Below are positions 4,032-36,427 of a stretch of DNA of 64,000 nt, piece after piece. The notes under the pieces are model-generated. The model had not been told where the DNA came from, did no database searches, and saw nothing but the letters and a program-made list of their open reading frames with translations. The DNA is taken from contig NZ_KB910924.1 in NCBI RefSeq assembly GCF_000383235.1, positions 62,001-126,000 on the forward strand. The letters run 5' to 3'. Source of the DNA: Bacillus sp. 123MFChir2. GTDB lineage: Bacteria > Bacillota > Bacilli > Bacillales > Bacillaceae_G. Every line of letters starts with the position of its first letter. Positions within the stretch are counted from its first letter, which is position 1. The position numbers and the translations under genes are program-made.

Positions 4032-5999
4032 CTACCAACCTACTTCTAAATAATCGATTTTGTTATTGAAATCATTTTTGTTATATGTGAATCCGCCGCC
4101 TTTTACAATTACATTCGTTACAATACTATCTTGAATACCAACAAGCATTACTGTTCTCGCTTGACAGTTTGCTAATATTGCTCTAAATGTCTTTTTACCG
4201 CCCTCACCAATGTGAATGTCAGCGCGCGGCCAGCCGCGTTGATTGTTGTATTTTGCGACACCACCTATACAGCTCCAGTCCAATGTGAAATAACACCAAA
4301 TCCCATCTTCTTGACAATAAGTAACGTCTGGATTTGTAATCCTTACTCCGTATCCATAATCAGTTACAATTCCAGCATTCATAGTCTTAATAACAGGGTT
4401 TAAAATCCTCACATTTTGATATTGAGGAGCAGTGTCACCTTCTTTACTCTTGAACCAAACTCCTCGTGAGGTTTCTTTATTTTTACCATTTCTAATATTT
4501 ATACCTTCAAGCGTAAAATCTTCACAGGTGTCGTTTAGAATTTGGAATATCAAACCATGTCCAACGTCATTTCCTATTACTTTTTCTGTCTTGAAGTAAG
4601 ACATATTATTAAACAATCCAAGTTCTTCTAGCACATTTGCGGCTTGAACATTATAAGTAATGTTTTTATGAATCACTTTATCAACGGGACCAATTTCTAC
4701 TAGACCTTTTTTCACATTTTTTAATTTAAGGGCAACTTTAACATTGTCACATGGCGTTAAATCGTAAGGCTTTGTATTTTGGTTTGTGAGCGTGTTTTTA
4801 TCATTGGATATATAAATACCTACCGTTGCACCTATCGACGTCGTAGCAGTGCAATCTATAGCTTCAATATCTATTTCTGAGTCTTTCACAGCATTTAAAG
4901 CAACGTATGCCTGTGACTCCCCGCCATTGATAACTTTTGTATCAATCACAACATCCTGACAATGTGATAACACAAATGCTTTTGCATCTTTTAGTTTTTT
5001 AAGATCAAATAATCCACCTTTAAAAGTGATACTCCTTGTCTTATCATATCCGCCAATGTTGACTGTATCTTTGTTAGTAAAGAATGTTGTACTTCCTGCC
5101 TTTAAAACGAAAACCGCATTCGGATCAGCACGAACGGTTATGTTACTCGGAATTTCTAAATCGCCAATTGTATATGTCCCCGCTGGAATATCTAATGTTT
5201 TTCCTGCCGATTCATTTAATGACTTTTGGAATGCCGTGTTATCGTTTCCGTAAGAAATTGCACTGTTATACGGAATCATTGATTTGATTGCCGCATCTAA
5301 CGAAGGATGAACGCCTTTTACATTTAACACTTCTTGTTTAATGTCATCATAAGCACCAAATAAAGCTAACTGCTTCCAATCTGTCCAAGTATTGTTAGCT
5401 TTTTTGCGGACATACAAACTATTCTCCGCTGTGCTATTCAAGCTATACGCGACCTGCATACAAGCATAATTACTTTCATTATGCGAATAAACTTGAATGT
5501 ACCAATAAAAACCTAATTTCTTAGGAGAATTTTCAAGATTACGACCTCTATAAAATCCAGTTTTAATTACTTGATTAAGATCAGTCTCTTCTTTAAGCGC
5601 AATGGTGTCTCCATTGTCATCGGTTAATTTAATACGTTGAAAACTATCTGTATTATCAAGCTTTGTTTTTATTTTTTGATTCAAATCATATAATGTCTTT
5701 TCTCCTAGCCTTGCCGCGACTACCTCATCAAAATTTGACGGCTTTGCTGCTAGAAAATCCGAGATCATTTTTTTGACTACATTTAAAGCATTGGCGTCTC
5801 CACTTGCTATTAAAGACTGTAATTTGGCAACATCAAGAGCTTCCTTTTCTGCTAAATTTAAAAGAGCTTGTTGAACCCTAACAATAAAATTGTTGTTGTT
5901 CACAAGCTCCGAATAGATGTTGTCTACTTCTAAGTTCAATTCTTTGCGTTCATCAGCAGACATAAGGGTATTTATATAATATTGTCTTGATAAACTCAT
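4032..5999 (-). CDS. Phage tail spike/fibre-like protein with pyocin-knob and right-handed beta-helix regions
   Basis: The protein has 655 aa. The N terminus (about 1-130) is helical and likely an attachment segment. Residues about 145-215 resemble a pyocin-knob module (TGFYRGRNLENSP, then a Trp-rich end at NNTWTDWKQL). From about 235 a parallel beta-helix of the pectate-lyase type follows, with repeated V/I-N-G-N ladders. Such proteins bind or cleave surface glycans. No catalytic residues can be assigned by eye. It lies between Dit (with one small ORF) and Tal, an unusual place, since such proteins usually follow Tal. The start ATG has a good ribosome site just upstream (GAAAGGAGAG). Confidence 0.75.
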   Translation of the reverse strand: MSLSRQYYINTLMSADERKELNLEVDNIYSELVNNNNFIVRVQQALLNLAEKEALDVAKLQSLIASGDANALNVVKKMISDFLAAKPSNFDEVVAARLGEKTLYDLNQKIKTKLDNTDSFQRIKLTDDNGDTIALKEETDLNQVIKTGFYRGRNLENSPKKLGFYWYIQVYSHNESNYACMQVAYSLNSTAENSLYVRKKANNTWTDWKQLALFGAYDDIKQEVLNVKGVHPSLDAAIKSMIPYNSAISYGNDNTAFQKSLNESAGKTLDIPAGTYTIGDLEIPSNITVRADPNAVFVLKAGSTTFFTNKDTVNIGGYDKTRSITFKGGLFDLKKLKDAKAFVLSHCQDVVIDTKVINGGESQAYVALNAVKDSEIDIEAIDCTATTSIGATVGIYISNDKNTLTNQNTKPYDLTPCDNVKVALKLKNVKKGLVEIGPVDKVIHKNITYNVQAANVLEELGLFNNMSYFKTEKVIGNDVGHGLIFQILNDTCEDFTLEGINIRNGKNKETSRGVWFKSKEGDTAPQYQNVRILNPVIKTMNAGIVTDYGYGVRITNPDVTYCQEDGIWCYFTLDWSCIGGVAKYNNQRGWPRADIHIGEGGKKTFRAILANCQARTVMLVGIQDSIVTNVIVKGGGFTYNKNDFNNKIDYLEVGW

Positions 6000-6247: not shown

Positions 6248-7084
6248 TTACAAGTAGTAAAATCTTGTATTCACTTCACACCAATGGAATGTGGAGGATT
6301 CGATTTTAATTTGGTTTATACCAGATGCAAGATGTATTTCACCTGCATCTGCATGCCGTACTAAATTGCGACCATATTCATCTTCTATATGAAGACCCTT
6401 AATAACAATGATTCCCTGTGAAACGGCAGAAGGATTGTAAATAGTCAACGAATCATTAGTAGTAAAGTTAGTAATCTTTAAATAACGTGGATCACATTTA
6501 ATACGCCATGTTATGTCATGTTGCGACGGATTAATTTCCATCGTTCCGACGTTTTTAAAATGGAACATTTTTTCTTTGAATGTGTAATCATATTTATGGT
6601 CCCACTCCAAATTCATACCCCAAGCAAATTTATTAGTATCCCACCCTTTAACGTCTAAAGAGGTAAATATACTTTCACCAAATCCGTCAGGCATTGAAAA
6701 TTCAATGATAATCTCAAATAATAAAGAACCAGGCGGACGGTTAATATTGATATTTTGATACTCAACCCGTCTCCGTATGCCTGGTTCTCGTGAATATATA
6801 ATATAGAAATCATCTAATCTTCCAAATAGGGCGTACAACTCGTTTCTTTTTTCATAAACACCCTCTATGTCCATCGTGTTTACAAGGACCCTGAGCTGAC
6901 AACCTCGTTCTGTATAGCTTTTATTGTAATATTGAACACCGAATTGCCCTTTCATTTTCATCTTATCTGACTCTATTTTAGGTGGATCTACTGTTAACTC
7001 TAACGTTTCAACATTGTGGTCTTTCTTAAGGGAACAAGTTTGTCCATTTTTAAATAAAAGAATTGTATCTGGCATACTTATCAT
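6248..7084 (-). CDS. Distal tail protein (Dit family)
   Basis: The protein has 278 aa. Its position directly after the tape-measure gene and its sequence (NRPPGSLLFEIIIEFSMPDG, C-terminal galectin-like beta sandwich) fit the siphovirus Dit/phage tail component family. Dit forms the hexameric hub joining the tail tube to Tal. The gene overlaps the tape-measure stop by 4 bp. Two starts are possible: the ATG at 7084 lies only 2 nt after GGAGG, while the ATG at 7075 (MPDTILL) lies 11 nt after it. Confidence 0.8.
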   Translation of the reverse strand: MISMPDTILLFKNGQTCSLKKDHNVETLELTVDPPKIESDKMKMKGQFGVQYYNKSYTERGCQLRVLVNTMDIEGVYEKRNELYALFGRLDDFYIIYSREPGIRRRVEYQNININRPPGSLLFEIIIEFSMPDGFGESIFTSLDVKGWDTNKFAWGMNLEWDHKYDYTFKEKMFHFKNVGTMEINPSQHDITWRIKCDPRYLKITNFTTNDSLTIYNPSAVSQGIIVIKGLHIEDEYGRNLVRHADAGEIHLASGINQIKIESSTFHWCEVNTRFYYL

Positions 7085-19572: not shown

Positions 19573-19848
19573 CTAAGACCTATATTTTCTAGGACCTACA
19601 ATTAGTTTGATTGCTGTTCTTTCTTGATTATCGATTGAAACCTCTTGAAACGCTGGAATAAGAACCAAGTCAATACCACTAGGAGCTACAAATCCTCTTG
19701 CAATAGCAATGGCTTTAATCGCTTGATTTATAGCGCCAGCTCCAATCACTTGAATTTCTGCATTACCGCTTTCTCTTAATACGCCTGCAATTGCGCCTGC
19801 AACTGAATTGGGATTTGATTTTGATGATACTTTTAATATATTTTCCAT
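19573..19848 (-). CDS. spoVS: SpoVS-family sporulation regulator encoded by the prophage
   Basis: The protein has 91 aa, close to Bacillus subtilis SpoVS (86 aa). Diagnostic stretches are ILKVSSKSNPNSVAGAIAGV, VIGAGAINQAIKAIAIARGF, VAPSGIDLVLIPAF and RTAIKLIVGPR. SpoVS is an Alba-like small protein needed for coat assembly and stage V progress, and it affects septation; it probably binds nucleic acid. The gene has its own ribosome site (AGAGGAG) and terminator and a sigma-H-like promoter upstream, so it looks independent of the lytic operons. It is most likely an extra copy beside the host gene, since spoVS normally lies elsewhere in Bacillus chromosomes. Confidence 0.93.
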   Translation of the reverse strand: MENILKVSSKSNPNSVAGAIAGVLRESGNAEIQVIGAGAINQAIKAIAIARGFVAPSGIDLVLIPAFQEVSIDNQERTAIKLIVGPRKYRS

Positions 19849-20038: not shown

Positions 20039-20556
20039 CTATCCATTGCATCTTGGTTTACCCCTATATATCTAAGTGTTACTTTTTCTGATGAATGATT
20101 AAATATCTCCATAAGCAACGCTATATTCTTTGTCTGCATGTACATATGATATCCGAATGTCTTACGTAATGTATGTGTACCAATCTCATCTAAGCCAAAC
20201 TCTGCTGCTGTACTACTAAGTATCTTATATGCCATGCTGCGACCAATAGGCCTGTTACTACCTTGTCTGCTCTTAATTAAGTACTCATGATCTTCTCTCT
20301 CTTCAATGAACCATTTCAACTCTCTTCTTAATGCTGCAGTAATTTGAATACGTTTCTGCTTACCTGTTTTCATTTCACGCATTGAGATGTGGCTTCCTTT
20401 TAAGTCACCAATCTTTAACTTCAAAATATCACTAATGCGTAATCCAGTGTTAACACCCACAACAAACAGGATATAATTACGTTCACTCTTCTCTTTCAAA
20501 TATTCTTTTATTTGCTGTATTTTCTCTGGATCACGGATAGGCTGAACAAAGTTCAT
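20014..20556 (-). CDS. Small tyrosine recombinase/phage integrase family protein
   Basis: The protein has 180 aa, essentially the catalytic domain alone. It shows the first Arg in NTGLRISDIL, Lys in GKQKR, the H-x-x-R box (THTLRKTFG), the second His (FNHSSEKVTLRYIG) and Tyr in the same segment. It lacks the N-terminal core-binding domain of full integrases (usually over 350 aa). It is translationally coupled to arpU (TAATG). In B. cereus phages this gene sits at the end of the middle operon, not at the att site, so it is probably not the integrase; it could act on multimer resolution or late regulation. Confidence 0.85.
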   Translation of the reverse strand: MNFVQPIRDPEKIQQIKEYLKEKSERNYILFVVGVNTGLRISDILKLKIGDLKGSHISMREMKTGKQKRIQITAALRRELKWFIEEREDHEYLIKSRQGSNRPIGRSMAYKILSSTAAEFGLDEIGTHTLRKTFGYHMYMQTKNIALLMEIFNHSSEKVTLRYIGVNQDAMDRAMTKFKI

Positions 20557-21020
20557 TACTCGCCACCTACCTGTTCCTCTTGCTCGTAAACTTCTAACCT
20601 AAGAGCAAAAGCAAGTTTATAAAAAGCATTAGATTTATTTCGTCTATATGTCCGTTCACTCATTCCAATCTCGTTATAAACCATATAATCAAAGATTTCT
20701 TCATCTTCCAAGTAACGTTTTACAATTATGTCTCGTTGATTCTTGCTAAAACGACTTAATGCCTTATCCACTTGAAAAGATAGGCGTTGTAGTCTCTCTT
20801 CTCGCTTACTTAATTCTACATTTTCAAGAGCAACATCTTCAGCTGGATTACCCACCACGTTTGTTGGACCGTGATATCTAACTTCACAAGAAGCTGTCAC
20901 TTTCATTTCATTTCTAATCATGCCGAATTGTCTATAAATGCGAATACTTTCAAGAACTGTTTCTATGCGATCTTGTGTAGCCTTACGATCAATTTTCGGT
21001 AAGAATGTCAATTGTTCCAT
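20556..21020 (-). CDS. ArpU-family late transcription regulator
   Basis: The protein has 154 aa, with sigma-factor-like helices: RFSKNQRDIIVKRYLEDEE followed by the HTH-like IGMSERTYRRNKSNAFYKLA. This matches the ArpU/RinA group of phage activators that switch on the packaging and structural operon. It lies just upstream of the late genes, behind a large terminator hairpin. The start ATG at 21020 is preceded by AAGGAGTG. Confidence 0.85.
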   Translation of the reverse strand: MEQLTFLPKIDRKATQDRIETVLESIRIYRQFGMIRNEMKVTASCEVRYHGPTNVVGNPAEDVALENVELSKREERLQRLSFQVDKALSRFSKNQRDIIVKRYLEDEEIFDYMVYNEIGMSERTYRRNKSNAFYKLAFALRLEVYEQEEQVGGE

Positions 21021-21398: not shown

Positions 21399-21589
21399 TC
21401 TTCTTCCTCCCTGTAACCTTGCCAACTGTCTTCTTCTAATCTAAAAGCTTTTGTTTTTAACCATCTATTACGCATGTTGTTCATCCGAACTGCCGAGTCT
21501 TCATATTTCATGAGTCGCGCAGAAATGATCGTGCATGTTAATCCAATCAGAAAGAAAATATCTGCAATAAATATTTCGATTTCCCTCAT
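21395..21589 (-). CDS. Small membrane-anchored phage protein, 64 aa
   Basis: It starts after GGAGGGATGAGGA. The N terminus MREIEIFIADIFFLIGLTCT is one predicted membrane helix (about 5-24), followed by a charged cytoplasmic tail ending EDSWQGYREEEE. It is coupled to the following gene by a 4-bp overlap. The role is unknown. Confidence 0.55.
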   Translation of the reverse strand: MREIEIFIADIFFLIGLTCTIISARLMKYEDSAVRMNNMRNRWLKTKAFRLEEDSWQGYREEEE

Positions 21590-21601
21590 TCCTCATCCCT
21601 C

Positions 21602-21720
21602 CGCATATTATTTCTAAATCTGCGTATACTATAACTGGCTACTCATAGCTGTACTCCATTTGTAGTTCTATTCTTCTCTCCCTTGAGGAGGAGCAGTTAG
21701 CTTTTGCTGACTGCTTTTTT
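21602..21720 (+). ncRNA. Array unit 1: sigma-G-like promoter plus short terminated RNA
   Basis: The promoter CGCATA (21602-21607), 17 bp, TATACTA (21625-21631) is a weaker version of the array consensus. The RNA would run from about 21638 to 21720 (about 80 nt). The terminator is AGCAGTTAGC/GCTGACTGCT with a 4-nt loop at 21692-21720. A pyrimidine tract CTTCTCTCCC precedes it. Confidence 0.5.
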
Positions 21721-21833
21721 CGTATAATATTTCACCATTTGCACATACTACAGTTAGGCCATCTCATGTTCTTGCATCCTAGGCCTGTTTCCCTCTCCAA
21801 GGGTGAGCAGTTAGTTTTTGCTAGCTGCTCTTT
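21721..21833 (+). ncRNA. Array unit 2: sigma-G-like promoter plus short terminated RNA
   Basis: The promoter is CGTATA (21721-21726), 17 bp, CATACTA (21744-21750). The predicted RNA spans about 21757-21833 (77 nt). The terminator is GAGCAGTTAG/CTAGCTGCTC at 21805-21830 followed by TTT. A TTCCCTCTCC tract lies just before the stem. Confidence 0.6.
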
Positions 21834-21870
21834 AAGTTAAATTAGAACAAGTTTTTTCAGTTTCCCTGCA

Positions 21871-21970
21871 ACTTTACAAACATAAAACATATATTATATT
21901 GAGGGTCACTCGTATCCTTTATATAGCACCTTTCTTAAAAGAGCACTTATAAAACGGTGCTCTTTATTTA
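21871..21970 (+). ncRNA. Array unit 3: sigma-K-like promoter plus short terminated RNA
   Basis: AC (21871-21872), 15 bp, CATATATTA (21888-21896) fits the sigma-K -10 CATANNNTA, with a spacer one base shorter than usual. The RNA runs from about 21903 to 21966. The terminator is GAGCAC/GTGCTC (21941-21946, 21957-21962) with a T-rich tail. A CAGTTTCCC block upstream (about 21858-21866) is shared with unit 8. Confidence 0.5.
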
Positions 21971-21977
21971 TTTTCCC

Positions 21978-22101
21978 TGTATAACATTTCAAATTTTGCA
22001 CATACTACAAACTGGTAGTAAAACTCCTTTTATTTTTGATGAGATATAAACGTTCTAGTTCCTTCATGGGCAAGCAGTTAGCGAATGCTAGCTGCTCTTT
22101 T
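21978..22101 (+). ncRNA. Array unit 4: sigma-G promoter plus short terminated RNA
   Basis: TGTATA (21978-21983), 17 bp, CATACTA (22001-22007) is a full sigma-G-type match. The RNA spans about 22014-22101 (88 nt). The terminator is AGCAGTTAGC, loop GAAT, GCTAGCTGCT at 22073-22096, then CTTTT. Confidence 0.65.
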
Positions 22102-22125
22102 CTATCTCAACGTTTTTCCCTTTTC

Positions 22126-22230
22126 CGTATAACATTTCAACATCTGTACATACTACAGTTAGGCTACCCCATAGCCATTCTTGGATCCTCTCTTCTGAAA
22201 AGCAGTTAGCTTTTGCTGACTGCTTTTTTT
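22126..22230 (+). ncRNA. Array unit 5: sigma-G-like promoter plus short terminated RNA
   Basis: CGTATA (22126-22131), 17 bp, CATACTA (22149-22155). The RNA spans about 22162-22230 (69 nt). It contains TCCTCT (22186-22191), complementary to Shine-Dalgarno cores. The terminator is AGCAGTTAGC/GCTGACTGCT at 22201-22224 with seven T. Confidence 0.65.
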
Positions 22231-22345
22231 CGTATAATATTTCACCATTTGCACATACTACAGATAAGCTGTTTTAGCAGCTTAGTCCAGTATTCTTTCT
22301 TTTAACTCTTTTTAGGGAGCAGTTAGTTTTTACTAGCTGTTCTTT
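22231..22345 (+). ncRNA. Array unit 6: sigma-G-like promoter plus short terminated RNA
   Basis: CGTATA (22231-22236), 17 bp, CATACTA (22254-22260), starting at the last base of the previous T-run. The RNA spans about 22267-22345. The terminator GAGCAGTTAG/CTAGCTGTTC at 22317-22342 contains G-U pairs. It is closely related to unit 16 (24554-24669). Confidence 0.6.
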
Positions 22346-22363
22346 AAGTAAGATTGATTTGTC

Positions 22364-22451
22364 ACTTTTATACAGAACAAGAATATATTATATCAAGTCA
22401 TGTACCTTATACTTTCTTACTCCAAATACACCCTATATAGGGTGCTCTTTT
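22364..22451 (+). ncRNA. Array unit 7: sigma-K-like promoter plus short terminated RNA
   Basis: AC (22364-22365), 16 bp, AATATATTA (22382-22390), with one mismatch to CATANNNTA. The RNA would be only about 55 nt. The terminator is the palindrome CACCCTATATAGGGTG (22429-22444) followed by CTCTTTTT. Confidence 0.45.
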
Positions 22452-22489
22452 TACTTTCAAATTGGACAAGTTTTTTTCAGTTTCCCAAC

Positions 22490-22621
22490 ACCTTTAAAAA
22501 AGAAAAACATATGTTATATTAAACCTTGATAAAGTGAATAAATTTTCACACCTTCTGGTTTACCCATAGCACTCTTCTGCAAAAAAGGGCACTTGTAAAA
22601 TAGTGCTCTTTATTTATTTTT
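22490..22621 (+). ncRNA. Array unit 8: sigma-K promoter plus short terminated RNA
   Basis: AC (22490-22491), 16 bp, CATATGTTA (22508-22516) is a full sigma-K-type match. The RNA spans about 22523-22615. The terminator GGGCACT/AGTGCTC (22587-22593, 22602-22608) with a T-rich tail is nearly identical to that of unit 17. Confidence 0.55.
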
Positions 22622-22623
22622 CC

Positions 22624-22736
22624 TGTATAGCATTTCAGATTTTGCACATACTACTTATAAGCCTTCCCTTGGGCGATAGCTATACTTGAATCCTCTTTTC
22701 AAAAGGGCAGCTAGCTTTTGCTGGTTGCTCTTTTAT
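22624..22736 (+). ncRNA. Array unit 9: sigma-G promoter plus short terminated RNA
   Basis: TGTATA (22624-22629), 17 bp, CATACTA (22647-22653). The RNA spans about 22660-22736 and contains TCCTCT (22691-22696). The terminator is an 11-bp stem GGGCAGCTAGC/GCTGGTTGCTC (22705-22730) followed by TTTT. Confidence 0.62.
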
Positions 22737-22761
22737 TCATTTTCAATTGGACACATTTACC

Positions 22762-22862
22762 AATATTATTTCTATAAAATTCATGTTATTGTAATTTAGT
22801 CTAGTACGTTGTTACTTGACAAAATACCTTTTGAGGCCCTGTGATAAACAGGGCTTCTTTTA
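22762..22862 (+). ncRNA. Array unit 10: sigma-E-like element plus short terminated RNA
   Basis: AATATT (22762-22767), 14 bp, CATGTTAT (22782-22789) has the sigma-E spacing and -35 but an imperfect -10. The same arrangement, embedded in a conserved CATTTACCAATATTATTT block, recurs in unit 18. The terminator is GCCCTG/CAGGGC at 22836-22854 with a T-rich tail. Confidence 0.4.
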
Positions 22863-22925
22863 TACAAAATGAAATTTTTATCATAAAACAAACCTTGAAT
22901 GTTTATATCACTTTTAGACATCCTA
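22859..22925 (+). promoter_or_regulatory. Candidate sporulation promoters of the 51-aa gene
   Basis: Two overlapping solutions exist. AC (22864-22865), 16 bp, CATAAAACA (22882-22890) resembles sigma-K with one mismatch and gives a leader of about 50 nt. TGAATG (22896-22901), 17 bp, CATCCTA (22919-22925) fits the sigma-G pattern but would start transcription at the ribosome site itself, which makes it less likely. Confidence 0.4.
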
Positions 22926-22944
22926 AAAATAGGAGGTGATATAT

Positions 22945-23100
22945 ATGAATAACTCTAAAAAAGAAAAAAATGATGTGACAAATAATAATGTGCTTGGTCT
23001 TGATTTAGATGAACAGGCTATGAACGGATTATACGGAATGCCTGAAACTGATATCGAGGACAAAGATCACCGTAAAAAAAGTAATTCACAAAATATCTAA
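22945..23100 (+). CDS. Small hydrophilic protein, 51 aa, inside the sporulation-type array
   Basis: A perfect ribosome site (AGGAGGTGAT, 22931-22940) precedes the ATG at 22945. The product begins MNNSKKEKNDVTNNNVLGLD and ends KKSNSQNI. It is polar, Asn/Asp/Lys-rich, with a short central segment LDEQAMNGLYGMPETD and no membrane helix. No family was recognised. It lies between array units and ends before an array-type terminator. It may be a small spore protein; a recombination directionality factor for the serine integrase is a speculative alternative, as those are often small and, in sporulation elements, mother-cell expressed. Confidence 0.7.
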   Translation: MNNSKKEKNDVTNNNVLGLDLDEQAMNGLYGMPETDIEDKDHRKKSNSQNI

Positions 23101-23152
23101 TACATATCAGATATCACATAAATACTCCCCCTTAAGTCCATTCTCTAACGGT

Positions 23153-23184
23153 GAGCGGTTAGCTTTTGCTAGCTGCTCTTTTAT
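23153..23184 (+). terminator. Array-type terminator after the 51-aa gene
   Basis: GAGCGGTTAGC pairs with GCTAGCTGCTC (11 bp with two G-U) around a TTTT loop (23153-23178), followed by TTTT. It belongs to the same family as the terminators of the small RNA units. Confidence 0.75.
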
Positions 23185-23211
23185 TAAGAAAACATGACCT
23201 TTAATATTTCT

Positions 23212-23357
23212 TACATATTTTCTAGAGGGAATACACATTTTACCTATATGTCGTTCGAACTAGCGGCTTACTCTTCTTTCAATGACTAAACCATTTATCT
23301 AATGAGAAACCTATTGAGCCTACAGGCAGGCAAGGAATCTTTGCCTGCTATTTTTTT
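23212..23357 (+). ncRNA. Array unit 13: weak sigma-G-like element plus terminated RNA
   Basis: TACATA (23212-23217), 18 bp, CATTTTA (23236-23242) matches the consensus only partly. The RNA would be about 108 nt. The terminator is GCAGGCAA/TTGCCTGC (23326-23333, 23341-23348) followed by a run of seven T from 23351. Confidence 0.4.
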
Positions 23358-23487
23358 GTATATTTTTTTTTGATTTGAATCATACTATTCATGAATCAGT
23401 TTACCAATACGAGTCATTTGAGCACTTTGAAAATCTTACTAAGTTATTCTACTCCTCACAGGACAAGCAATTTAGCTTGTCCTGTTT
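23357..23487 (+). ncRNA. Array unit 14: sigma-G promoter plus terminated RNA
   Basis: TGTATA (23357-23362), 18 bp of mostly T, CATACTA (23381-23387) is a full match placed directly in the T-run of the previous terminator. The RNA spans about 23394-23487. It ends in the stem AGGACAAGC/GCTTGTCCT (23460-23468, 23475-23483), but the T-tract is short (TGTTT). Confidence 0.55.
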
Positions 23488-23542
23488 GCAATTAAAGTTA
23501 TAGTTTTCATTTTCCTATTCTCTATATTTAAAATTTATTTTT

Positions 23543-23573
23543 TGTATTAAAAACAAAGGTTTGCAACATTATA
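23543..23573 (+). promoter_or_regulatory. Candidate sigma-G-like promoter of the Gln-rich protein gene
   Basis: TGTATT (23543-23548), 18 bp, CATTATA (23567-23573) has one mismatch in the -35 and matches the -10 pattern CATNNTA. It would give a leader of about 39 nt containing AAAAGGAGG. Confidence 0.4.
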
Positions 23574-23618
23574 AAAATGTTCCTCACTAATATGTGAGTA
23601 CAAAAGGAGGATTTTAAA

Positions 23619-24128
23619 ATGGATAAACGAACAGAGAAACAAGTTGAAGCCGTGGCACGTAAAGCTGCTGATTTGGAAGTTTCACAAGAATTAACTAGCC
23701 TTAAAAATCAAATTCAACAGTTGCAACATTCTTTATCTCAAGCATCTCAGGGGCAACAACAAGGGCAGCAACCACAGCAAGGATTACAACAGGCTAATCA
23801 ACTAATGCAACAACTTCAACAATTTAGTCAACAATCTCAACAACAAATGCAACAAGCTGACCAACAATTACAGCAAACTATTCAACAAGCTATTCAAACA
23901 CTAAATCAAGGATTACAGTATCTACAGGCTAATCAAACACTAAGCCAAGTAAATCAAGCTATTTCTCAGGCTCAATCACAAGTAGGTGGCCAACAAGGAC
24001 AGCAGATGGGCAACCAGCAAATGAGCGGCCAACAAGGACAGCAAATGAGCAACCAGCAAATGAACGGCCAACAAGGACAGCAAATGGGCAACCAGCAAAT
24101 GAACGACACTCAACAACAATTTCATTAA
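23619..24128 (+). CDS. Gln-rich repeat protein, 169 aa, of unknown function
   Basis: A strong ribosome site (AAAAGGAGG) precedes the ATG. Residues 1-35 are charged and helical (MDKRTEKQVEAVARKAADLE); residues 36-120 are Gln-rich amphipathic helix (LQQANQLMQQLQQFSQQ); the C end carries three 13-residue repeats of the type GQQGQQMGNQQMN. There is no signal peptide and no membrane segment. It is the largest protein in the sporulation-type array. Gln-rich repeats are common in Bacillus spore coat and exosporium proteins, but I do not recognise this family. An antisense 98-codon frame over its end is a shadow. Confidence 0.75.
   Translation: MDKRTEKQVEAVARKAADLEVSQELTSLKNQIQQLQHSLSQASQGQQQGQQPQQGLQQANQLMQQLQQFSQQSQQQMQQADQQLQQTIQQAIQTLNQGLQYLQANQTLSQVNQAISQAQSQVGGQQGQQMGNQQMSGQQGQQMSNQQMNGQQGQQMGNQQMNDTQQQFH
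23988..24104 (+). repeat. Three tandem 39-bp coding repeats
   Basis: Copies at 23988-24026, 24027-24065 and 24066-24104 differ at only a few bases and each encodes 13 residues of the GQQGQQMxNQQMx type. Near-identity implies recent expansion, and copy number probably varies between strains. Confidence 0.9.
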
Positions 24129-24249
24129 AACTTGTTCTAGCAAAACAAGAAGCTGTAAAATTTCTATATCTTATATAACAGTGAGCAAAATTCAATTCCT
24201 TTTTGTTAGCTACTCCTAAAACGAAGCAAGAACATAAGAATTCTTTGGG

Positions 24250-24276
24250 GAGCACTTAAATAAGTGCTCTTTTTTA
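24250..24276 (+). terminator. Intrinsic terminator after the Gln-rich protein gene
   Basis: GAGCACTT (24250-24257) and AAGTGCTC (24262-24269) form a perfect stem followed by six T. It is related to the GGGCACTT terminators of units 8 and 17. Confidence 0.8.
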
Positions 24277-24431
24277 TATAAAGACTTTATACAACATGGT
24301 ATTTTCGTTCGAATTTCTTATTTGGCATTTTATCTATTAATGAGATAATCAAATATATTCTTATCTACTTTCTCCTCTTTATGCTCTTAAGGGTTTTCGT
24401 CTCGGCGTATATTTCATTATGGAGATTCTCA

Positions 24432-24553
24432 TGTATAACATTTCAAATTTTGCATATGCTACAAACAGGCAACTCCATGTATTACATATTTGTTGATCTA
24501 TCTGTCCTCTCCCCTCGAGGATGAGCAGTTAGCCTTTGCTGACTGCTTTTTTT
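24432..24553 (+). ncRNA. Array unit 15: sigma-G-like promoter plus terminated RNA
   Basis: TGTATA (24432-24437), 17 bp, TATGCTA (24455-24461); the spacer is nearly identical to unit 4, but the -10 has two changes. The RNA spans about 24468-24553 and contains TCCTCT (24505-24510). The terminator is AGCAGTTAGC/GCTGACTGCT (24524-24547) plus seven T. Confidence 0.52.
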
Positions 24554-24669
24554 CGTATAATATTTCACCATCTGCACATACTACAGATAAGCTATTTTAA
24601 CAGCTTAATTCAGTTTTCTTTCTCTTAACCCTTTTTAGAGAGCAGTTAGTTTTTGCTAGCTGCTCTTTA
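24554..24669 (+). ncRNA. Array unit 16: sigma-G-like promoter plus terminated RNA
   Basis: CGTATA (24554-24559), 17 bp, CATACTA (24577-24583). The RNA spans about 24590-24668 and is a near copy of unit 6. The terminator is GAGCAGTTAG/CTAGCTGCTC (24640-24665) followed by TTT. Confidence 0.6.
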
Positions 24670-24686
24670 GTTTGAAATTCACTTAC

Positions 24687-24808
24687 ACATTTAAGAAACA
24701 AAAACATATATTATATTAAATGTTGGTCAAATGGATAACTCTCCACGCCTTATTGTTTTCCCATAGCATCCTTCTCCAAAAAGGGCACTTGTAAAATAGT
24801 GCTCTTTT
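24687..24808 (+). ncRNA. Array unit 17: sigma-K promoter plus terminated RNA
   Basis: AC (24687-24688), 16 bp, CATATATTA (24705-24713) is a full sigma-K-type match. The RNA spans about 24720-24808 and shares its 3' half with unit 8 (CCCATAGCA, then CCTTCT and the GGGCACT/AGTGCTC stem at 24783-24804). Confidence 0.57.
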
Positions 24809-24828
24809 CCTATTTACATACATTTACC

Positions 24829-24926
24829 AATATTATTTTTCGATATTTCATGTTAAGTTAGATGAGGTGATTTTATCCATGTCACCATTGCAAATTTCTG
24901 CCCCATCAATATATGGGGCCTTTTTA
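24829..24926 (+). ncRNA. Array unit 18: sigma-E-like element plus terminated RNA
   Basis: AATATT (24829-24834), 14 bp, CATGTTAA (24849-24856), matching unit 10. The terminator is GCCCCAT/ATGGGGC (24900-24919) plus TTTTT. A 38-codon frame (24879-24995, MSPLQISAPSIYGAFLLG...) with an AGGTGAT site starts inside the unit but runs through the terminator. Whether it is translated is unclear. Confidence 0.42.
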
Positions 24927-24991
24927 TTGGGAAATTTTAAATTATATTACAACCACACCTTCGCCACTTATGGCGACAATTTCAAATCGTA

Positions 24992-25183
24992 TTAAATCAA
25001 CACTGTTTCCCGCTTTTCAATACGAATTACTTTATTGTTCTTGTATATTAAAGAATGCTCGCCATGTCCGCTAGATGGGGGATCTATTTGCTGAATCTGT
25101 CCATCTTTCACTACATAAATCTTATTTTCTTTTAAATCTATTTCAGCTTTCATTTCTGCAATATTTTCTTTAATAATTCCCAC
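24992..25183 (-). CDS. DUF3954-like small phage protein
   Basis: The conserved core MKAEIDLKENKIYVVKDGQI, then QQIDPPSSGHGEHSLIYKN, is typical of the DUF3954 family found in Bacillus phage early regions. A GTG start at 25183 (VGIIKEN) has a GGAGTGG ribosome site at the right distance; the ATG at 25198 is an alternative without a site. About 63 aa. It is the last gene of the early operon and ends convergently with the RNA array. The function is unknown. Confidence 0.7.
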   Translation of the reverse strand: MGIIKENIAEMKAEIDLKENKIYVVKDGQIQQIDPPSSGHGEHSLIYKNNKVIRIEKRETVLI

Positions 25184-25664: not shown

Positions 25665-27008
25665 TTACTGTGCCTCCTGCCTAGATTCATTATCAAATCT
25701 ACGTTCAAGATTGATAAACTTACTAAACTCTTTAATAAAAGCCAGTTCTACAACGCCTACAGGGCCGTTTCTCTGTTTAGCTAGAATAATTTCAGTCACA
25801 TTTTTATTCGCTGTTTCTGCATCGTAATAATCTTCACGGTATAGGAATGCAATCAAATCCGCATCTTGCTCGATTTGTCCAGTCTCACGTAAATCAGATA
25901 ACAACGGCCGCTTATCTTGTCTATTTTCAACAGCACGACTTAACTGTGATAATGCAATTACACAAACTTTTAATTCTCTGGCCATCAATTTCAACTTGCG
26001 GCTAATCTCACCAATTTCTTGCATGCGGTTTCCTTTATGTTTTGGATCACCTACGATAAGTTGTAGATAATCGATTGCTATTAACACCTTTTTATTTGGA
26101 TGTTTACGTTTCAATTTTCTTGTCTTTGCATAAATTTCTTGCATTGTTACATTTGGCTTATCATATATTTCTAGCGGCAAGTTATTAATTAGTCCCATCG
26201 CTTGACTAATCTTTTCCCAGTCCTTGATGTTACATAGTTTTTTAGGGTTCTTCATTTTTGTCGCATCAACGTTTCCAGCGCTCGAGATCATGCGCTTAAG
26301 CAATTGTTCTTCTCCCATCTCTAGTGAAAATATTCCTGTCGCTGCATCTGAACTTGCTGCATTATAGGCGATGTTTAACACAAATGCAGTTTTCCCCATC
26401 GATGGACGCCCACCCACAATGATTAAATCTCCTTCCTGCAATCCAGAAGTCATGCTATTCAAGTTGTTGTAACCAGTATTTATGCCTGTTAAATCACCAA
26501 CATCAATCTGCATTTTTTGATATAACTCTACAAGAGTTCCTCTTAAATCAAATTCACCTGCATATCCTGTCTCCTCAATGGCATTCAACTCATCAATTGT
26601 GTTGCTAATCGCACTAATATCCTTGTCATTTTTAAGATTGTTATATAAATTGACAACTACTTCTTGAGCGTGTCTCATCTTCCAAGCTTCGATAACTAGA
26701 CCTTCGTGATAAGAGAAATTCTTTGTTGTTGAAACGACCTCGGTTAGATTAACAAAAAACTCTACACCGCCAATTTGTTGGATAAAGATTTCATCAAATT
26801 TAGCAATTACTGATACAAGATCTATTGGGCTCTCAGCATCATCTAATTCCTTCATAGCCTTAAAAACAATTTGATGTGCTGGATGTGAAAATTGTTTTTC
26901 TTTTAACTGACAATCTTTAATTAAATCACCTTCAAGAAGGATGCTACCTAAAACACTTTGTTCGGCTTCTGTATTGCGAATGATTTCGTTACTCATCGCA
27001 TCATCCAT
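25665..27008 (-). CDS. Replicative DNA helicase, DnaB family
   Basis: The protein has 447 aa. The DnaB N-terminal domain is at about 8-110. The RecA-like core carries Walker A (GGRPSMGKTAF, about 203), Walker B (VLIAIDYLQLI), the H3 region (ALSQLSRAVE) and H4 (DLRETGQIEQDADLI). It unwinds phage DNA at the fork and is loaded by the DnaD-like protein encoded just upstream. It overlaps that gene by 16 bp; the ATG at 26996 (MSNEIIRN) may be the true start. Confidence 0.95.
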   Translation of the reverse strand: MDDAMSNEIIRNTEAEQSVLGSILLEGDLIKDCQLKEKQFSHPAHQIVFKAMKELDDAESPIDLVSVIAKFDEIFIQQIGGVEFFVNLTEVVSTTKNFSYHEGLVIEAWKMRHAQEVVVNLYNNLKNDKDISAISNTIDELNAIEETGYAGEFDLRGTLVELYQKMQIDVGDLTGINTGYNNLNSMTSGLQEGDLIIVGGRPSMGKTAFVLNIAYNAASSDAATGIFSLEMGEEQLLKRMISSAGNVDATKMKNPKKLCNIKDWEKISQAMGLINNLPLEIYDKPNVTMQEIYAKTRKLKRKHPNKKVLIAIDYLQLIVGDPKHKGNRMQEIGEISRKLKLMARELKVCVIALSQLSRAVENRQDKRPLLSDLRETGQIEQDADLIAFLYREDYYDAETANKNVTEIILAKQRNGPVGVVELAFIKEFSKFINLERRFDNESRQEAQ

Positions 27009-32725: not shown

Positions 32726-34312
32726 ATGGATGTATGTACAATGTTAGAGAAAATAATTTTTTTCGAAAATTGTATGAACGAACTAAAAAAAATATCAACT
32801 ACACAAGAATATAGTGAAAACTCAGATTTAATAGTTGTTTCTTTTACTGGGACTTTCGGAGACTTCCAACATTTCATTAAATCATATTGGGAGCCTCACG
32901 ATACTATCGATGAACACATCAAAATTCGTGTTTCATATGATCATCGTATCTTAAATCCTACTATGATGACTTCAAAGATGGCTTATGACGTTCATAAAAT
33001 CGTGAATCTTAAATTAAATTTTTCGAAATCTGATAGTATATATGCACATTATAAGGATACCCTAGTATTTTTGAATTTAAATTCGTTTACTAAATTTATT
33101 AATGAAACTAAATTAATGGCATTTTTAAATCAACTGGACAATAAAAAATTCATATTCTTACCTATCGATAAAGAATATGAAAACGGAATTATCCATTTAC
33201 TCCCATTAAAAGATATAGAATTTTTCACAACATTTGATAAAGATATACCCTTAGATATAAAAGAAAAACTCGATGAAAGCTCTTCTCTTTATTTTAAGTA
33301 TATGAATAGAAAACATTGTGATTTCATTGCAAACCCCTATGTTTTTCATTTTAGCGATATTGAAAACACTTCATTAAAACAAACCTTAGATTATAATCTA
33401 TTTTTATCTGCCATGCACTTTATTGCCAACTGGTCTTCAAAAGAGAAATTTATAATCAAAGGCTATAAAAATGTTGAACTTACAAATCAGGAATTTTTCT
33501 GTACAAAATATGCAAATGATTTGTTCAATATTTTTGAATTTGTTTACGACAAAGATAAATTTGTAGATAAAGCTGAAATTGCACGAAATATTTTTTCGCT
33601 TTACTTAAATGATGAAGATAATTTAGATCAAGTTGACCTTCAATTACCCAAAATATACGATACTATAACTACACACTTTAAAACGTATATACAGAAGGAA
33701 ATCAAAGAGTTCTTCGATCAACGCAAAGATGTCGAAAAAGAAGCTTATAATGCTGCAATTGAAGCAAAGGGTGAAACAGATAAAGTTGTTCAAAGTATTA
33801 ATTTACTCCTTTTAGGCCTAATCACAGCCGCTTTAACAGGTGTATTTGCATATTCTAAAGGAGAAAAGATTATTTTCCTTCTTGCTTTATTATTTCATAT
33901 TATTTATATAATCCTAACTTATTTTATAAATAATAAAAACTTTTCTTACAAAGAAGCGGATATTTTAGCCTCTTTTAATGGATATATTGAACAATTCTCT
34001 GTGCTAACCATAGAAGAAACTAATAAAATTAAAGAAACATATATTGAACCTGCTTTTATACGATTAAACAATGCATTATTGTGGTACAAATGGCTTGTGT
34101 GTGCACTTGTACTAATCTTAATGTGCGCAACATGTGTTGGTTTCTATTTTTTATATACTAGTCCAGAAAAAACTTCACAAAAAGACAATACAATGAAAGT
34201 TGATAAAATAATTATTCAACAACAAGATACAAATGTTGAAAGAGTTCCTTCTAAACCTGTTTTTCAGGAACAACTACCCCTATTTGATATTAATAAAATA
34301 CTTCAAAAATGA
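32726..34312 (+). CDS. Membrane protein partner of the NdpA-like protein, 528 aa
   Basis: About 350 soluble N-terminal residues of unknown fold are followed by three predicted membrane helices (about 357-376, 381-401, 455-477), with a helical loop between the second and third and a C-terminal tail of about 50 residues. A segment at about 320-355 is coiled-coil-like. No enzyme motif was seen. Start and stop spacing indicates coupling to the upstream NdpA-like gene. A DNA-binding protein paired with a membrane protein in a prophage accessory slot fits an anti-phage or exclusion system, but this is inference. Confidence 0.7.
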   Translation: MDVCTMLEKIIFFENCMNELKKISTTQEYSENSDLIVVSFTGTFGDFQHFIKSYWEPHDTIDEHIKIRVSYDHRILNPTMMTSKMAYDVHKIVNLKLNFSKSDSIYAHYKDTLVFLNLNSFTKFINETKLMAFLNQLDNKKFIFLPIDKEYENGIIHLLPLKDIEFFTTFDKDIPLDIKEKLDESSSLYFKYMNRKHCDFIANPYVFHFSDIENTSLKQTLDYNLFLSAMHFIANWSSKEKFIIKGYKNVELTNQEFFCTKYANDLFNIFEFVYDKDKFVDKAEIARNIFSLYLNDEDNLDQVDLQLPKIYDTITTHFKTYIQKEIKEFFDQRKDVEKEAYNAAIEAKGETDKVVQSINLLLLGLITAALTGVFAYSKGEKIIFLLALLFHIIYIILTYFINNKNFSYKEADILASFNGYIEQFSVLTIEETNKIKETYIEPAFIRLNNALLWYKWLVCALVLILMCATCVGFYFLYTSPEKTSQKDNTMKVDKIIIQQQDTNVERVPSKPVFQEQLPLFDINKILQK

Positions 34313-34421
34313 AAGGCAGCAATGCCTTTTACTTTTAAATAAAAACAGAACAAACATTCTTGTAAGTGGTATATTATTTCATAGGTTTTTCCATATAATA
34401 AATAGAAGGAGGTTATTCCTT

Positions 34422-35969
34422 ATGAAAACAGCAATCTACCTACGTAAATCCCGTGCCGATCTCGAAGCTGAAGCACGTGGCGAAGGTGAAACTCTAGCAA
34501 AGCACCGTACTACCCTGCTGAAAATCGCAAAGGAAATGAACTTAGATGTTTTAGCGGTTCGCGAAGAAATCGTTTCTGGAGAAAGCCTCGTCAAACGTCC
34601 TGAAATGCTGGCACTTCTCGAAGAAATTGAAGATAACAAATATGATGTTGTTCTTTGTATGGATATGGACCGTTTAGGTCGTGGTGGTATGAAAGAACAA
34701 GGAATCATTTTAGAGACGTTTAAACGCTCGAATACGAAGATTATGACACCAAGGAAGACTTATAACCTTAATGATGAGTGGGACGAAGAATATAGCGAAT
34801 TTGAGGCGTTTATGGCACGTAAGGAATTAAAGATTATTACACGTCGTATGCAACGCGGCCGTGTCGCAAGTGTAGAGGCTGGTAATTACCTTGGTACACA
34901 TGCACCTTACGGATATGATATCCATCGTTTAAATAAGCGAGAACGCACGTTAGCAATTAATTCAGAAGAAGCATCTGTCGTAAGAATGATATTTGAGTGG
35001 TATGCCAATGAGGATATGGGCGCAAATGCAATTATGCGTAAATTAAATGAGCTTGGCTACAAAAGCAAGTTAGGTAACAATTGGAACCCGTACAGTATAT
35101 TGGATATGTTAAAAAATCATATTTATATTGGCAAAGTCACATGGCAAAAAAGAAAAGAGGTAAAAAGTCCTAATGCTGTAAAACGTAGTAATACAAGGCA
35201 AGATAAATCAGAATGGATTATTGCTGATGGAAAACATGAGCCTATCATCTCAGAAAGCTTGTTTGAAAAAGTACAGGAGAAACTAAACACCAGATATCAT
35301 GTTCCTTATAATACAAACGGATTAACGAATCCACTGGCTGGGATTATTAGATGCGGTAAATGCGGCTACAGTATGGTACAACGGTATCCAAAGAATCGAA
35401 AGCCTACAATGGATTGTAAACATCGTGGTTGTGAAAATAAATCCAGTTATACAGAGTTGATTGAGAAGCGTTTGCTCGAGGCATTAAAAGAATGGTACAT
35501 CAATTATAAAGCTGATTTCGAGGAAAATAAGAACAGTGGCAACGCAAAAGAAACACAAGTGATACAAATAAATCAAGCTGCTTTACGAAAGCTTGAAAAA
35601 GAATTAGTGGATGTCCAAAAACAAAAAAATAATTTACACGACTTATTAGAACGTGGCGTTTATACTGTTGATATGTTCTTAGAACGTTCAAATGTTGTTT
35701 CCGATCGCATCAATGAAATTACTTCCACGATGGAAAACTTAAAGAAAGAAATTAAAACGGAAATAAAAAAGGAAAAAGTGAAGAAAGATACCATCCCTCA
35801 AGTAGAGCATGTTCTTGATCTATACTTCAAAACAGATGATCCGAAAAAGAAAAACAGCCTCCTAAAGTCGGTTTTAGAAAAGGCTGTTTATAAGAAAGAA
35901 AAGTGGCAAAGACTCGATGATTTCGAACTTGTGCTTTATCCTAAGCTCCCTCAAGATGGCGACAAATAA
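34422..35969 (+). CDS. Large serine recombinase (prophage integrase/excisionase)
   Basis: The protein has 515 aa from the ATG at 34422 (site AGAAGGAGG). The resolvase domain starts MKTAIYLRKSRAD with Ser10 as nucleophile; the recombinase domain spans about 160-300; a zinc ribbon has Cys311, 314, 332 and 337; a coiled coil lies at about 365-460. This is the architecture of CisA (skin), SprA (SPbeta) and phiC31 integrase. It ends 17 bp from the truncated dpaB frame, so it most likely cuts within dpaB. Excision would need a directionality factor, not identified here. Confidence 0.95.
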   Translation: MKTAIYLRKSRADLEAEARGEGETLAKHRTTLLKIAKEMNLDVLAVREEIVSGESLVKRPEMLALLEEIEDNKYDVVLCMDMDRLGRGGMKEQGIILETFKRSNTKIMTPRKTYNLNDEWDEEYSEFEAFMARKELKIITRRMQRGRVASVEAGNYLGTHAPYGYDIHRLNKRERTLAINSEEASVVRMIFEWYANEDMGANAIMRKLNELGYKSKLGNNWNPYSILDMLKNHIYIGKVTWQKRKEVKSPNAVKRSNTRQDKSEWIIADGKHEPIISESLFEKVQEKLNTRYHVPYNTNGLTNPLAGIIRCGKCGYSMVQRYPKNRKPTMDCKHRGCENKSSYTELIEKRLLEALKEWYINYKADFEENKNSGNAKETQVIQINQAALRKLEKELVDVQKQKNNLHDLLERGVYTVDMFLERSNVVSDRINEITSTMENLKKEIKTEIKKEKVKKDTIPQVEHVLDLYFKTDDPKKKNSLLKSVLEKAVYKKEKWQRLDDFELVLYPKLPQDGDK

Positions 35970-36016
35970 GGGTTCGCTCTTTGTCGTCATCTTGTTGGTG
36001 TAATTAGATTGACACC
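35955..36016. other. Right attachment junction in dpaB, with a 12-bp hairpin
   Basis: GATGGCGACAAA (35955-35966) and TTTGTCGTCATC (35980-35991) form a near-perfect inverted repeat covering the recombinase stop. Just beyond it, on the minus strand, DpaB reads ...GLNGVNL and then diverges into ITPTR and a stop; relatives continue MRLM. The crossover therefore lies near 35992-36012. The exact core needs the left junction. Confidence 0.7.
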
Positions 36017-36427
36017 ATTTAATCCAAGAGCATCGTTCGTTGAAACTGCTAATACAACCGGTTTACCATTTCGTAGTGTGGCTTTAGCGGCCATTAATAC
36101 GGGTGAATCTGTCATTGCATTCGCAAATTTACTCATTGTATTTCCTGTTAATGGTGCTATAACCATACAATCCAATGGAATTTTCGGACCAAGCGGTTCT
36201 GCCTTCACAATAGAATCAATTACTTTATGGCCAGTAATAGCTTCTATCTTCTCAATCCACTCTGCACCTTCACCAAATCTTGTGTTTGTCGTTTGTAATG
36301 TATATGATACAACAGGGCGTACTTCCGCTCCATCCGCAACAAGTTTTTCTAAGTGTGGCATGACTTCTGCATACGTACAATGTGAGCCTGTTAATCCAAA
36401 ACCAATTCGTTTCCCTTTTACACTCAT
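35987..36427 (-). CDS. dpaB: Dipicolinate synthase subunit B, 5' part, interrupted by the prophage
   Basis: The frame has 146 codons against about 200 in intact DpaB (SpoVFB). Residues 1-141 are normal flavoprotein-like DpaB (GFGLTGSHCTYAEVMPHLEK; VIAPLTGNTMSKFANAMTDS), and the last five are phage-encoded. About 55 C-terminal residues are missing. DpaA and DpaB make dipicolinic acid in the mother cell for spore core dehydration and heat resistance. It overlaps dpaA by 4 bp. Function would depend on precise prophage excision. Confidence 0.93.
   Translation of the reverse strand: MSVKGKRIGFGLTGSHCTYAEVMPHLEKLVADGAEVRPVVSYTLQTTNTRFGEGAEWIEKIEAITGHKVIDSIVKAEPLGPKIPLDCMVIAPLTGNTMSKFANAMTDSPVLMAAKATLRNGKPVVLAVSTNDALGLNGVNLITPTR

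Follow-up and report, generated by a model that had tools for sequence, protein, structure and literature searches.

Between coordinates 21602 and 24926 of the 64,000-nt stretch of DNA analyzed here (the window), a prophage carries an array of 15 promoter-terminator units, all on the + strand, of which nine have sigma-G-type promoters, four have sigma-K-type promoters, and two have an AATATT-N14-CATGTTA element. We favor, with a probability of about 0.55, reading the array as autonomous cassettes for trans-acting small RNAs made in the forespore and the mother cell. The array is not peculiar to one prophage, and related viral sequences hold cassette sets of their own.

Organization of the array and its prophage setting

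The units and neighboring features are listed in Table 1. The preliminary description recognized nine sigma-G, four sigma-K, and two AATATT/CATGTTA units in a total of about 16, and the motif counts bear out these classes; its statement that no lytic genes lie between the units needs qualification, as two protein genes are inside the array, one coding for a 51-aa DUF4021 protein (PF13213) with a sigma-G-like site at 22897 and the other for a Gln-rich protein (P0001). P0001 has relatives in 12 other IMG/VR loci, and the G7 body resembles the body preceding the P0001 relative in two of these (L010 and L012). Units G5 and G9 are paralogues (repeat D5, which takes in the preceding terminator, 92% over 146 nt), as are K3 and K4 (repeat D7, 79%), and repeat families D1 and D2 correspond to the terminator (nine copies) and the promoter (seven copies), respectively.

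Table 1. Promoter-terminator units, genes within the array, and prophage landmarks, in window coordinates
Feature	Coordinates	Strand	Description
SpoVS, prophage-borne	19573..19848	-	PF04232, 5.5e-39
Unit G1	21602..21719	+	Sigma-G-type promoter GCATATT..GTATACTA; predicted ~86-nt RNA; terminator AGCAGTTAG
Unit G2	21721..21834	+	Sigma-G type
Unit K1	21868..21969	+	Sigma-K type; terminator GAGCAC..GTGCTC
Unit G3	21978..22100	+	Sigma-G type
Unit G4	22126..22229	+	Sigma-G type; predicted fold with 5' hairpin GGCUA-UAGCC
Unit G5	22231..22345	+	Sigma-G type
Unit K2	22362..22450	+	Sigma-K type, -10 GAATATATTA; terminator CACCCTATATAGGGTG
Unit K3	22488..22615	+	Sigma-K type
Unit G6	22624..22735	+	Sigma-G type
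Unit E1	22762..22861	+	AATATT-N14-CATGTTA element and terminator
DUF4021 gene unit	22897..23181	+	Site GAATG-N17-CATCCTA; CDS 22945-23100; sigma-G-class terminator 23153-23178
Unit G7	23357..23490	+	GTATA-N18-CATACTA; hairpin GGACAAGC..GCTTGTCC, weak T tail
P0001, Gln-rich 169-aa protein	23619..24272	+	CDS 23619-24128; GTGCTC terminator 24247-24272
Unit G8	24432..24553	+	Sigma-G type (ATATGCTA)
Unit G9	24554..24669	+	Sigma-G type
Unit K4	24685..24812	+	Sigma-K type
Unit E2	24829..24926	+	AATATT-N14-CATGTTA element and terminator
Large serine recombinase	34233..35969	+	PF07508, PF00239, PF13408; prophage edge
spoVFB (dpaB), 5' part	35987..36427	-	TIGR02852, profile 1-137 of 187; interrupted at prophage edge

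The strict sigma-G motif G[CT]ATA-N17/18-CATACTA occurs seven times on the + strand of the array (21722, 21979, 22127, 22232, 22625, 23358, and 24555) and not at all on its - strand or in the other 121,350 nt of the window (both strands). A comparison with shuffled DNA, which the preliminary description had proposed as a check, comes out in its favor, with no such site in 500 dinucleotide shuffles. A class-G matrix, trained on the same set that it scores, gives 8.6 at 21602 and 9.7 at 24432, bringing the sigma-G-type units to nine; at a threshold of 9 it finds seven matches in the array, with the sites at 21602 and 23358 falling below, and six elsewhere in the window, the best of which scores 13.0. 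The strict sigma-K motif AC-N15/16-CATANNNTA is present at three positions in the array (21871, 22490, and 24687; 0.22 per shuffle) and at five in the remainder of the window, and a fourth sigma-K-type site at 22362 scores 16.4 with the class-K matrix. AATATT-N14-CATGTTA occurs twice in the array and nowhere else in the window.

Seventeen terminators are predicted on both strands between 20500 and 26000 (14 of them on the + strand), compared with 2.5 ± 1.8 in shuffled sequences. The scan covers nine of the 15 units (G2, G3, G6, G8, K1, K2, K3, E1, and E2); the terminators of G1, G4, G5, G9, and K4 are seen as repeat copies (families D1 and D9) and in folds, and the G7 hairpin is visible in the fold only.

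The prophage interrupts spoVFB at the edge that lies within the window, beside the serine recombinase. The sequence record (G001) starts in phage genes, and the left edge is outside both it and the window; the right edge and the beginning of the record share no stretch longer than 12 nt, a match that we attribute to chance. Six prophage proteins have no match to defense-system models.

Recurrence of the cassettes and properties of the candidate RNA bodies

One 30-mer of the sigma-G-class terminator is present in at least 120 IMG/VR stretches, and among the matches listed, 219 of 267 distinct class-G terminator copies have a promoter of the same type upstream (controls: 0.6% Markov and 1.9% reverse complement). 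A second class couples the sigma-K promoter to a different terminator (85 of 150; controls, 4% and 10%). Searching from the promoter side finds a terminator within 150 nt in 42 of 56, 42 of 45, and 45 of 65 distinct matches, compared with 6 to 11% at random positions and 0 to 5% in reverse. Loci L002, L004, and L005 were dropped as copies of L001, as was L137 in the class-K terminator analysis. A class-G terminator was excluded when it lay within 230 nt of the oriented locus start, a class-K terminator when it lay within 180 nt, and either when N occurred upstream; bodies longer than 90 nt were left out of the covariation, conservation, pairing, frame, and permutation analyses (203 of 209 were kept for the last two).

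The 209 class-G units fall into 42 body clusters. Within families, identity is 0.83 in the middle and 0.91 in the terminator but 0.52 to 0.54 in the outer flanks (baseline, 0.49 to 0.50), with the 50 nt directly upstream of the units at 0.62 (baseline, 0.51); because similarity drops to near background beyond the promoter and terminator, the units are cassettes. The earlier view of conserved ends around a variable middle needs refinement, as the middles form families common to several records. Predicted structure in the middles is weak (mean z, -0.42), with zero to four base pairs changed on both sides per family (helices pooled).

These patterns might also arise from a spreading repeat, selfish or amplified by recombination, in which promoter and terminator are kept by copying and the RNA has no function. 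The abundance of the terminator 30-mer fits such an element, as does the finding that in four of eight comparable families conservation of the middle does not exceed that of the promoter spacer, and the 72-bp Bant-1 repeat, listed with 104 copies for B. anthracis, is a possible parallel (PMC2267715). However, the two promoter classes remain coupled to two terminator classes, same-family pairs within one locus are fewer than in permutations (9 of 257 compared with 18.7), and the middles have a pairing bias, so we regard this explanation as rather unlikely.

The pairing bias is toward translation initiation regions: middles (one per cluster) pair with the 39 initiation regions in the window at -2.24 kcal, compared with -1.34 kcal for shuffled middles (p 5e-7), and the preference is absent for their reverse complements. 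UCUCC and UUUCU are enriched in the 209 class-G bodies (63 compared with 19.8 and 118 compared with 45.9, respectively), whereas the core anti-Shine-Dalgarno sequence CCTCC is found less often than expected by chance (7 of 209 compared with 17.5 ± 4.1), as is CCTC (37 compared with 46.9), and GAGG is found more often (27 compared with 18.1). Class-K bodies have no clear enrichment of CU motifs. No single mRNA target among the 39 initiation regions rises above shuffles, and self-targeting of the prophage is not supported, as 96 units have no preference for the mRNAs of their own prophage (p 0.34 and 0.20).

Numerous strong promoters that have terminators but no gene could instead act as decoys, titrating sigma-G and sigma-K RNA polymerase and thereby weakening or delaying host sporulation, with the terminators stopping wasteful transcription. 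That phage sigma factors are able to reduce spore yield makes interference at this level plausible (PMC9429907). Decoys need no conserved middles, though, and the middle families kept in unrelated flanks, together with their Shine-Dalgarno pairing bias, count against this reading, as does the presence of only about 15 sites in the prophage; we think it improbable.

Sigma factor assignment and coding content

Sigma-G promoters follow the pattern TGAATA/GHATR, a spacing of 17 to 18, and CATNHTA, and sigma-K promoters have AC in the -35 and CATANNNTA as the -10, both of which are found in the class-K units. Measured against CATNHTA, 70 of 209 class-G -10 elements fit strictly, and 195 fit with the first and last bases relaxed. 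When applied to SPbeta, the class-G matrix recovers the promoter of its one SASP gene, which we take to be sspC, with a score of 20.3, the next best of 38 tiles scoring 5.0; the class-K matrix finds a site (37419-37390, score 16.8) in the window upstream of spoVFA, which is under sigma-K control. sspC is SigG-regulated (PMC8270828), and the available text of PMC517825 does not name spoVFA. These two added controls agree with the preliminary sigma-G and sigma-K assignments, from which the compartments of the candidate RNAs would follow.

Recognition of the class-G promoters by sigma-E is a further alternative, and one that we consider quite unlikely. The class-G -35 contains ATA, with T, as in sigma-E, where sigma-K has C (PMC517825; the placement on class G is our own alignment). 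However, the -10 is common to sigma-E and sigma-K (PMC517825), and since the -10 elements of class G and class K differ, this speaks against sigma-E, as does the match of the class-G matrix to the SPbeta SASP gene.

The bodies are short and CU-rich, each unit having its own predicted promoter and terminator, and Shine-Dalgarno-led reading frames of at least 5 aa are at or below the shuffled level (4 of 203 compared with 5.7), in support of the earlier proposal of short RNAs rather than mRNAs. It is very unlikely that the units code for short peptides made in sporulation, since this frame count and the lack of any ATG in 111 of 203 middles outweigh an excess of plain ATG frames of at least 10 aa (60 of 203 compared with 39.6, with frames running off the unit counted) and the real small gene (DUF4021) with the same signals inside the array.

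Proposed role and relation to known systems

In the cassette interpretation, the forespore would express the sigma-G cassettes and the mother cell the sigma-K cassettes, with an RNA of roughly 55 to 110 nt from each. Class-G RNAs would often begin with a 5' hairpin; a C-rich hairpin loop or CU-rich stretch would come next, then the class-specific terminator. The CU-rich part may pair around Shine-Dalgarno sites, blocking translation of chosen mRNAs, most likely those of the host. This could occur in late sporulation or through RNA kept into germination, and related prophages would carry different, largely nonredundant sets, with cassettes passed on as units. As a tentative extension, prophages of the B. 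cereus group may carry exchangeable two-cell-type repertoires, with the forespore RNAs being kept in the spore to direct translation at germination in the prophage's favor. To our knowledge, roles are established for few of the small RNAs of sporulation, and a modular, recurrent prophage set split by cell type would add a new layer to the coexistence of temperate phages and spore formers. The roughly three hundred natural variants (209 of class G and 85 of class K) might themselves reveal seeds and targets.

Like the predicted class-G RNAs, CsfG and Bvs196 of Bacillus are forespore noncoding RNAs (under sigma-F/sigma-G), but each comes from a single gene, the 294-nt Bvs196 from one located between hinT and ecsA, and the available text describes no array, cassette families, or paired sigma-K class for them (PMC9147052). 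Vfbin is a phage-like element in the mother-cell sporulation gene spoVFB, similar to skin, SPbeta in spsM, and vrin, and the insertion seen here at one edge resembles it; these elements are known for gene-restoring excision, and small-RNA arrays are not mentioned in the available parts of the sources (PMC4191935, PMC6957869). The bcr and Bant-1 elements are short, dispersed stem-loop repeats of the B. cereus group, for which the available text, compared by description only, does not describe a promoter-RNA-terminator anatomy (PMC2267715).

No Rfam model, CsfG included, matches the window at gathering thresholds or positions 21500-25000 at E<=1. Whole-array similarity searches of phage and plasmid collections gave no match, nor did P0001 in the phage collection or the terminator pattern and P0001 in the genome contigs searched, and the array of locus L116 matched only phage SpaA1 (two records of one phage; one unit) and a Klebsiella-labeled plasmid. 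The L116 matches and those listed for two proteins of the prophage include no record carrying a B. cereus-group name; a lack of matches in these collections is therefore no evidence of absence, and chromosomal copies of the cassettes in B. cereus-group genomes are possible.

The streptococcal csRNAs and RNAs of the RsaE/RoxS type are chromosomal, multicopy, anti-Shine-Dalgarno small RNAs of Firmicutes that are not known to be sporulation timed. The array is like them in comprising several candidate short RNAs that have CU- or C-rich segments and share one regulator, but it is prophage-borne and has two sigma classes and dozens of body clusters.

Array anatomy and motif specificity

The array is a plus-strand stretch of 3.3 kb, flanked by early replication genes and the gene of a late transcriptional activator, which is presumably ArpU-like. 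The run of promoter-terminator units in the preliminary description is borne out: nine have a sigma-G-type promoter, four a sigma-K-type promoter, and two a promoter of unassigned type. Each is followed by a terminator or hairpin (nine from the terminator scan and five more as repeat copies; the sigma-G-type unit G7 ends in a predicted hairpin whose T tail is weak). The array also contains genes for two proteins, a DUF4021 protein and the Gln-rich protein P0001, whose relatives are found in 12 other IMG/VR loci (seven displayed whole; 4/12 match over 28 residues only). A further body, with a terminator-like hairpin, resembles one in the related loci L010 and L012 and has no assignable promoter.

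Coordinates of features in the window and in related records
Record	Feature	Positions	Strand	Remark
Window	SpoVS homologue	19573-19848	-	PF04232, 5.5e-39
Window	Late transcriptional activator	20556-21020	-	PHROG 248
Window	Hairpin-ended body	23190-23349	+	hairpin 23325-23349
Window	P0001	23619-24128	+	variable C-terminal GQQMGNQQ-type repeats in family; no Pfam or PHROG match
Window	DnaB helicase (early replication)	25665-27008	-
Window	Large serine recombinase	34233-35969		adjoins spoVFB
Window	spoVFB	35987-36427	-	interrupted at prophage edge
L012 (related array)	DUF4183 gene	6738-7007	+	DUF4021 there in window
Phage SpaA1 (L138, species Beceayunavirus BceA1)	One class-G unit	4985-5111		antisense between P51 and P52
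Plasmid CP079755 (L139)	Several cassettes of this Bacillus type	4887-5735		labelled Klebsiella grimontii

Strict sigma-G sites number seven in the array, with none on its other strand, elsewhere in the window, or in 500 shuffles, and the array region contains 17 terminators versus 2.5 in shuffles. The contrast between array and surroundings is softer with the matrix trained on class G, one of two promoter-terminator classes across related loci, which at scores of ≥9 has seven matches in the array and six outside in the window (top outside, 13.0). Strict sigma-K sites are less exclusive to the array than strict sigma-G sites (three inside, five elsewhere in the window), and the class-K matrix at ≥16 gives four matches inside and five outside, one of these upstream of spoVFA.

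Shared cassettes in two matched classes

The nearest related record, G001, contains an identical array (100% over 3331 nt), and the class-G terminator 30-mer is present in at least 120 IMG/VR stretches. Among 267 distinct terminators whose upstream sequence is long enough, 219 are preceded by a class-G promoter; the control rates are 0.6% for Markov copies and 1.9% for reverse complements. The matrix behind these values was trained on the same set as it scores; a fixed pattern used before the matrix placed a promoter at 135/285. In the second class, a TCACCT-N12-AGCATATATTA promoter is coupled with a GAGCAC..GTGCTC terminator (85/150, versus 4% and 10% in controls). Searching promoter first, a terminator follows within 150 nt for 42/56, 42/45, and 45/65 distinct matches, counts that include loci originally gathered by terminator, on which the second pattern rests; the control rates are 6-11% for random positions and 0-5% when the orientation is reversed. 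The preliminary description was right, and understated. The units are common to many loci, modular, and of two matched promoter-terminator classes.

The 209 class-G middles, between promoter and terminator, form 42 clusters. Within 15 families with enough pairs at middle identity 0.6-0.97, identity is 0.89 in the -35, 0.80 in the spacer, 0.89 in the -10, 0.91 in the terminator, and 0.83 in the middle, the last partly by construction. Flank values are not so constructed, and fall to 0.62 (near) and 0.53 (far) upstream and 0.54 and 0.52 downstream, versus 0.49-0.51 between unrelated families. Same-family pairs within a locus number 9/257, versus 18.7 under permutation (fraction at or below, 0.0095), and cassette sets are therefore largely non-redundant. 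By a crude frame search, the 5'-side gene is on the opposite strand for 145/209 units, and both neighbours are for 73. Cargo genes between cassettes may be exchangeable, as with DUF4183 and DUF4021, and the Klebsiella grimontii label of CP079755 possibly reflects mixed culture or assembly.

Sigma factor class and predicted RNAs

Two controls support the proposed sigma assignment. The class-K matrix scores 16.8 upstream of spoVFA, a sigma-K-dependent gene. SPbeta has a single SASP gene, which we take to be sspC, a SigG-regulated gene (PMC8270828); upstream of it the class-G matrix scores 20.3, and the second-best of the 38 tiles scores 5.0. Sigma-E and sigma-K are described as sharing a -10 and differing in the -35, where the base is T or C (PMC517825), whereas the class-G and class-K -10 elements differ; class G is therefore not just a sigma-E class. 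Counting against sigma-G, A is commoner than C as first base of the class-G -10, and 70/209 units fit the strict -10 pattern.

Class-G RNAs have an expected length of 59-108 nt (5th-95th percentile; median, 79), and several in the window are predicted to fold with a hairpin at the 5' end, then a segment that is CU-rich or has a C-rich loop, then the terminator. Among the 209 units, UCUCC (63 versus 19.8), UUUCU (118 versus 45.9), and GAGG (27 versus 18.1) are above chance, CCUCC is below it (7 versus 17.5), and GGAGG is not enriched (4 versus 4.5). Plain ATG frames of ≥10 aa exceed chance (60/203 versus 39.6), and SD-led frames are at or below it. With one middle per cluster and 39 initiation regions of the window, middles pair better with initiation regions than with internal segments (-2.24 kcal, versus -1.34 for shuffled middles). 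No single mRNA target emerged among these regions, and no preference for the own prophage's mRNAs was found for 96 units (23 loci chosen, less any with <5 initiation regions). The p values of these tests serve as guides only, since many of the sequences are related and so not independent. The putative function of the RNAs is, for now, best read as control of translation in trans.

Prophage setting and known elements

Among the matches listed in open-licence PMC literature, none deals with arrays of this kind in its title or abstract. The 72-bp repeat family Bant-1 of B. anthracis, represented here by its table row, which gives no sequence (PMC2267715), may be related to the cassettes.

The prophage has one edge in the window, where it interrupts spoVFB; its second edge lies beyond the window. 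The spoVFB product aligns to the profile over positions 1-137 of 187, and a SpoVS homologue is a sporulation protein encoded among the phage genes. The prophage is therefore linked to sporulation in three ways: by where it is inserted, by SpoVS, and by the array together with the DUF4021 gene inside it. The host is probably a member of the B. cereus group, judging from phage SpaA1 and from the papers on the element vfbin. By its edge in spoVFB, the prophage resembles vfbin, described as an element in spoVFB of B. weihenstephanensis KBAB4 (PMC4191935, PMC6957869).
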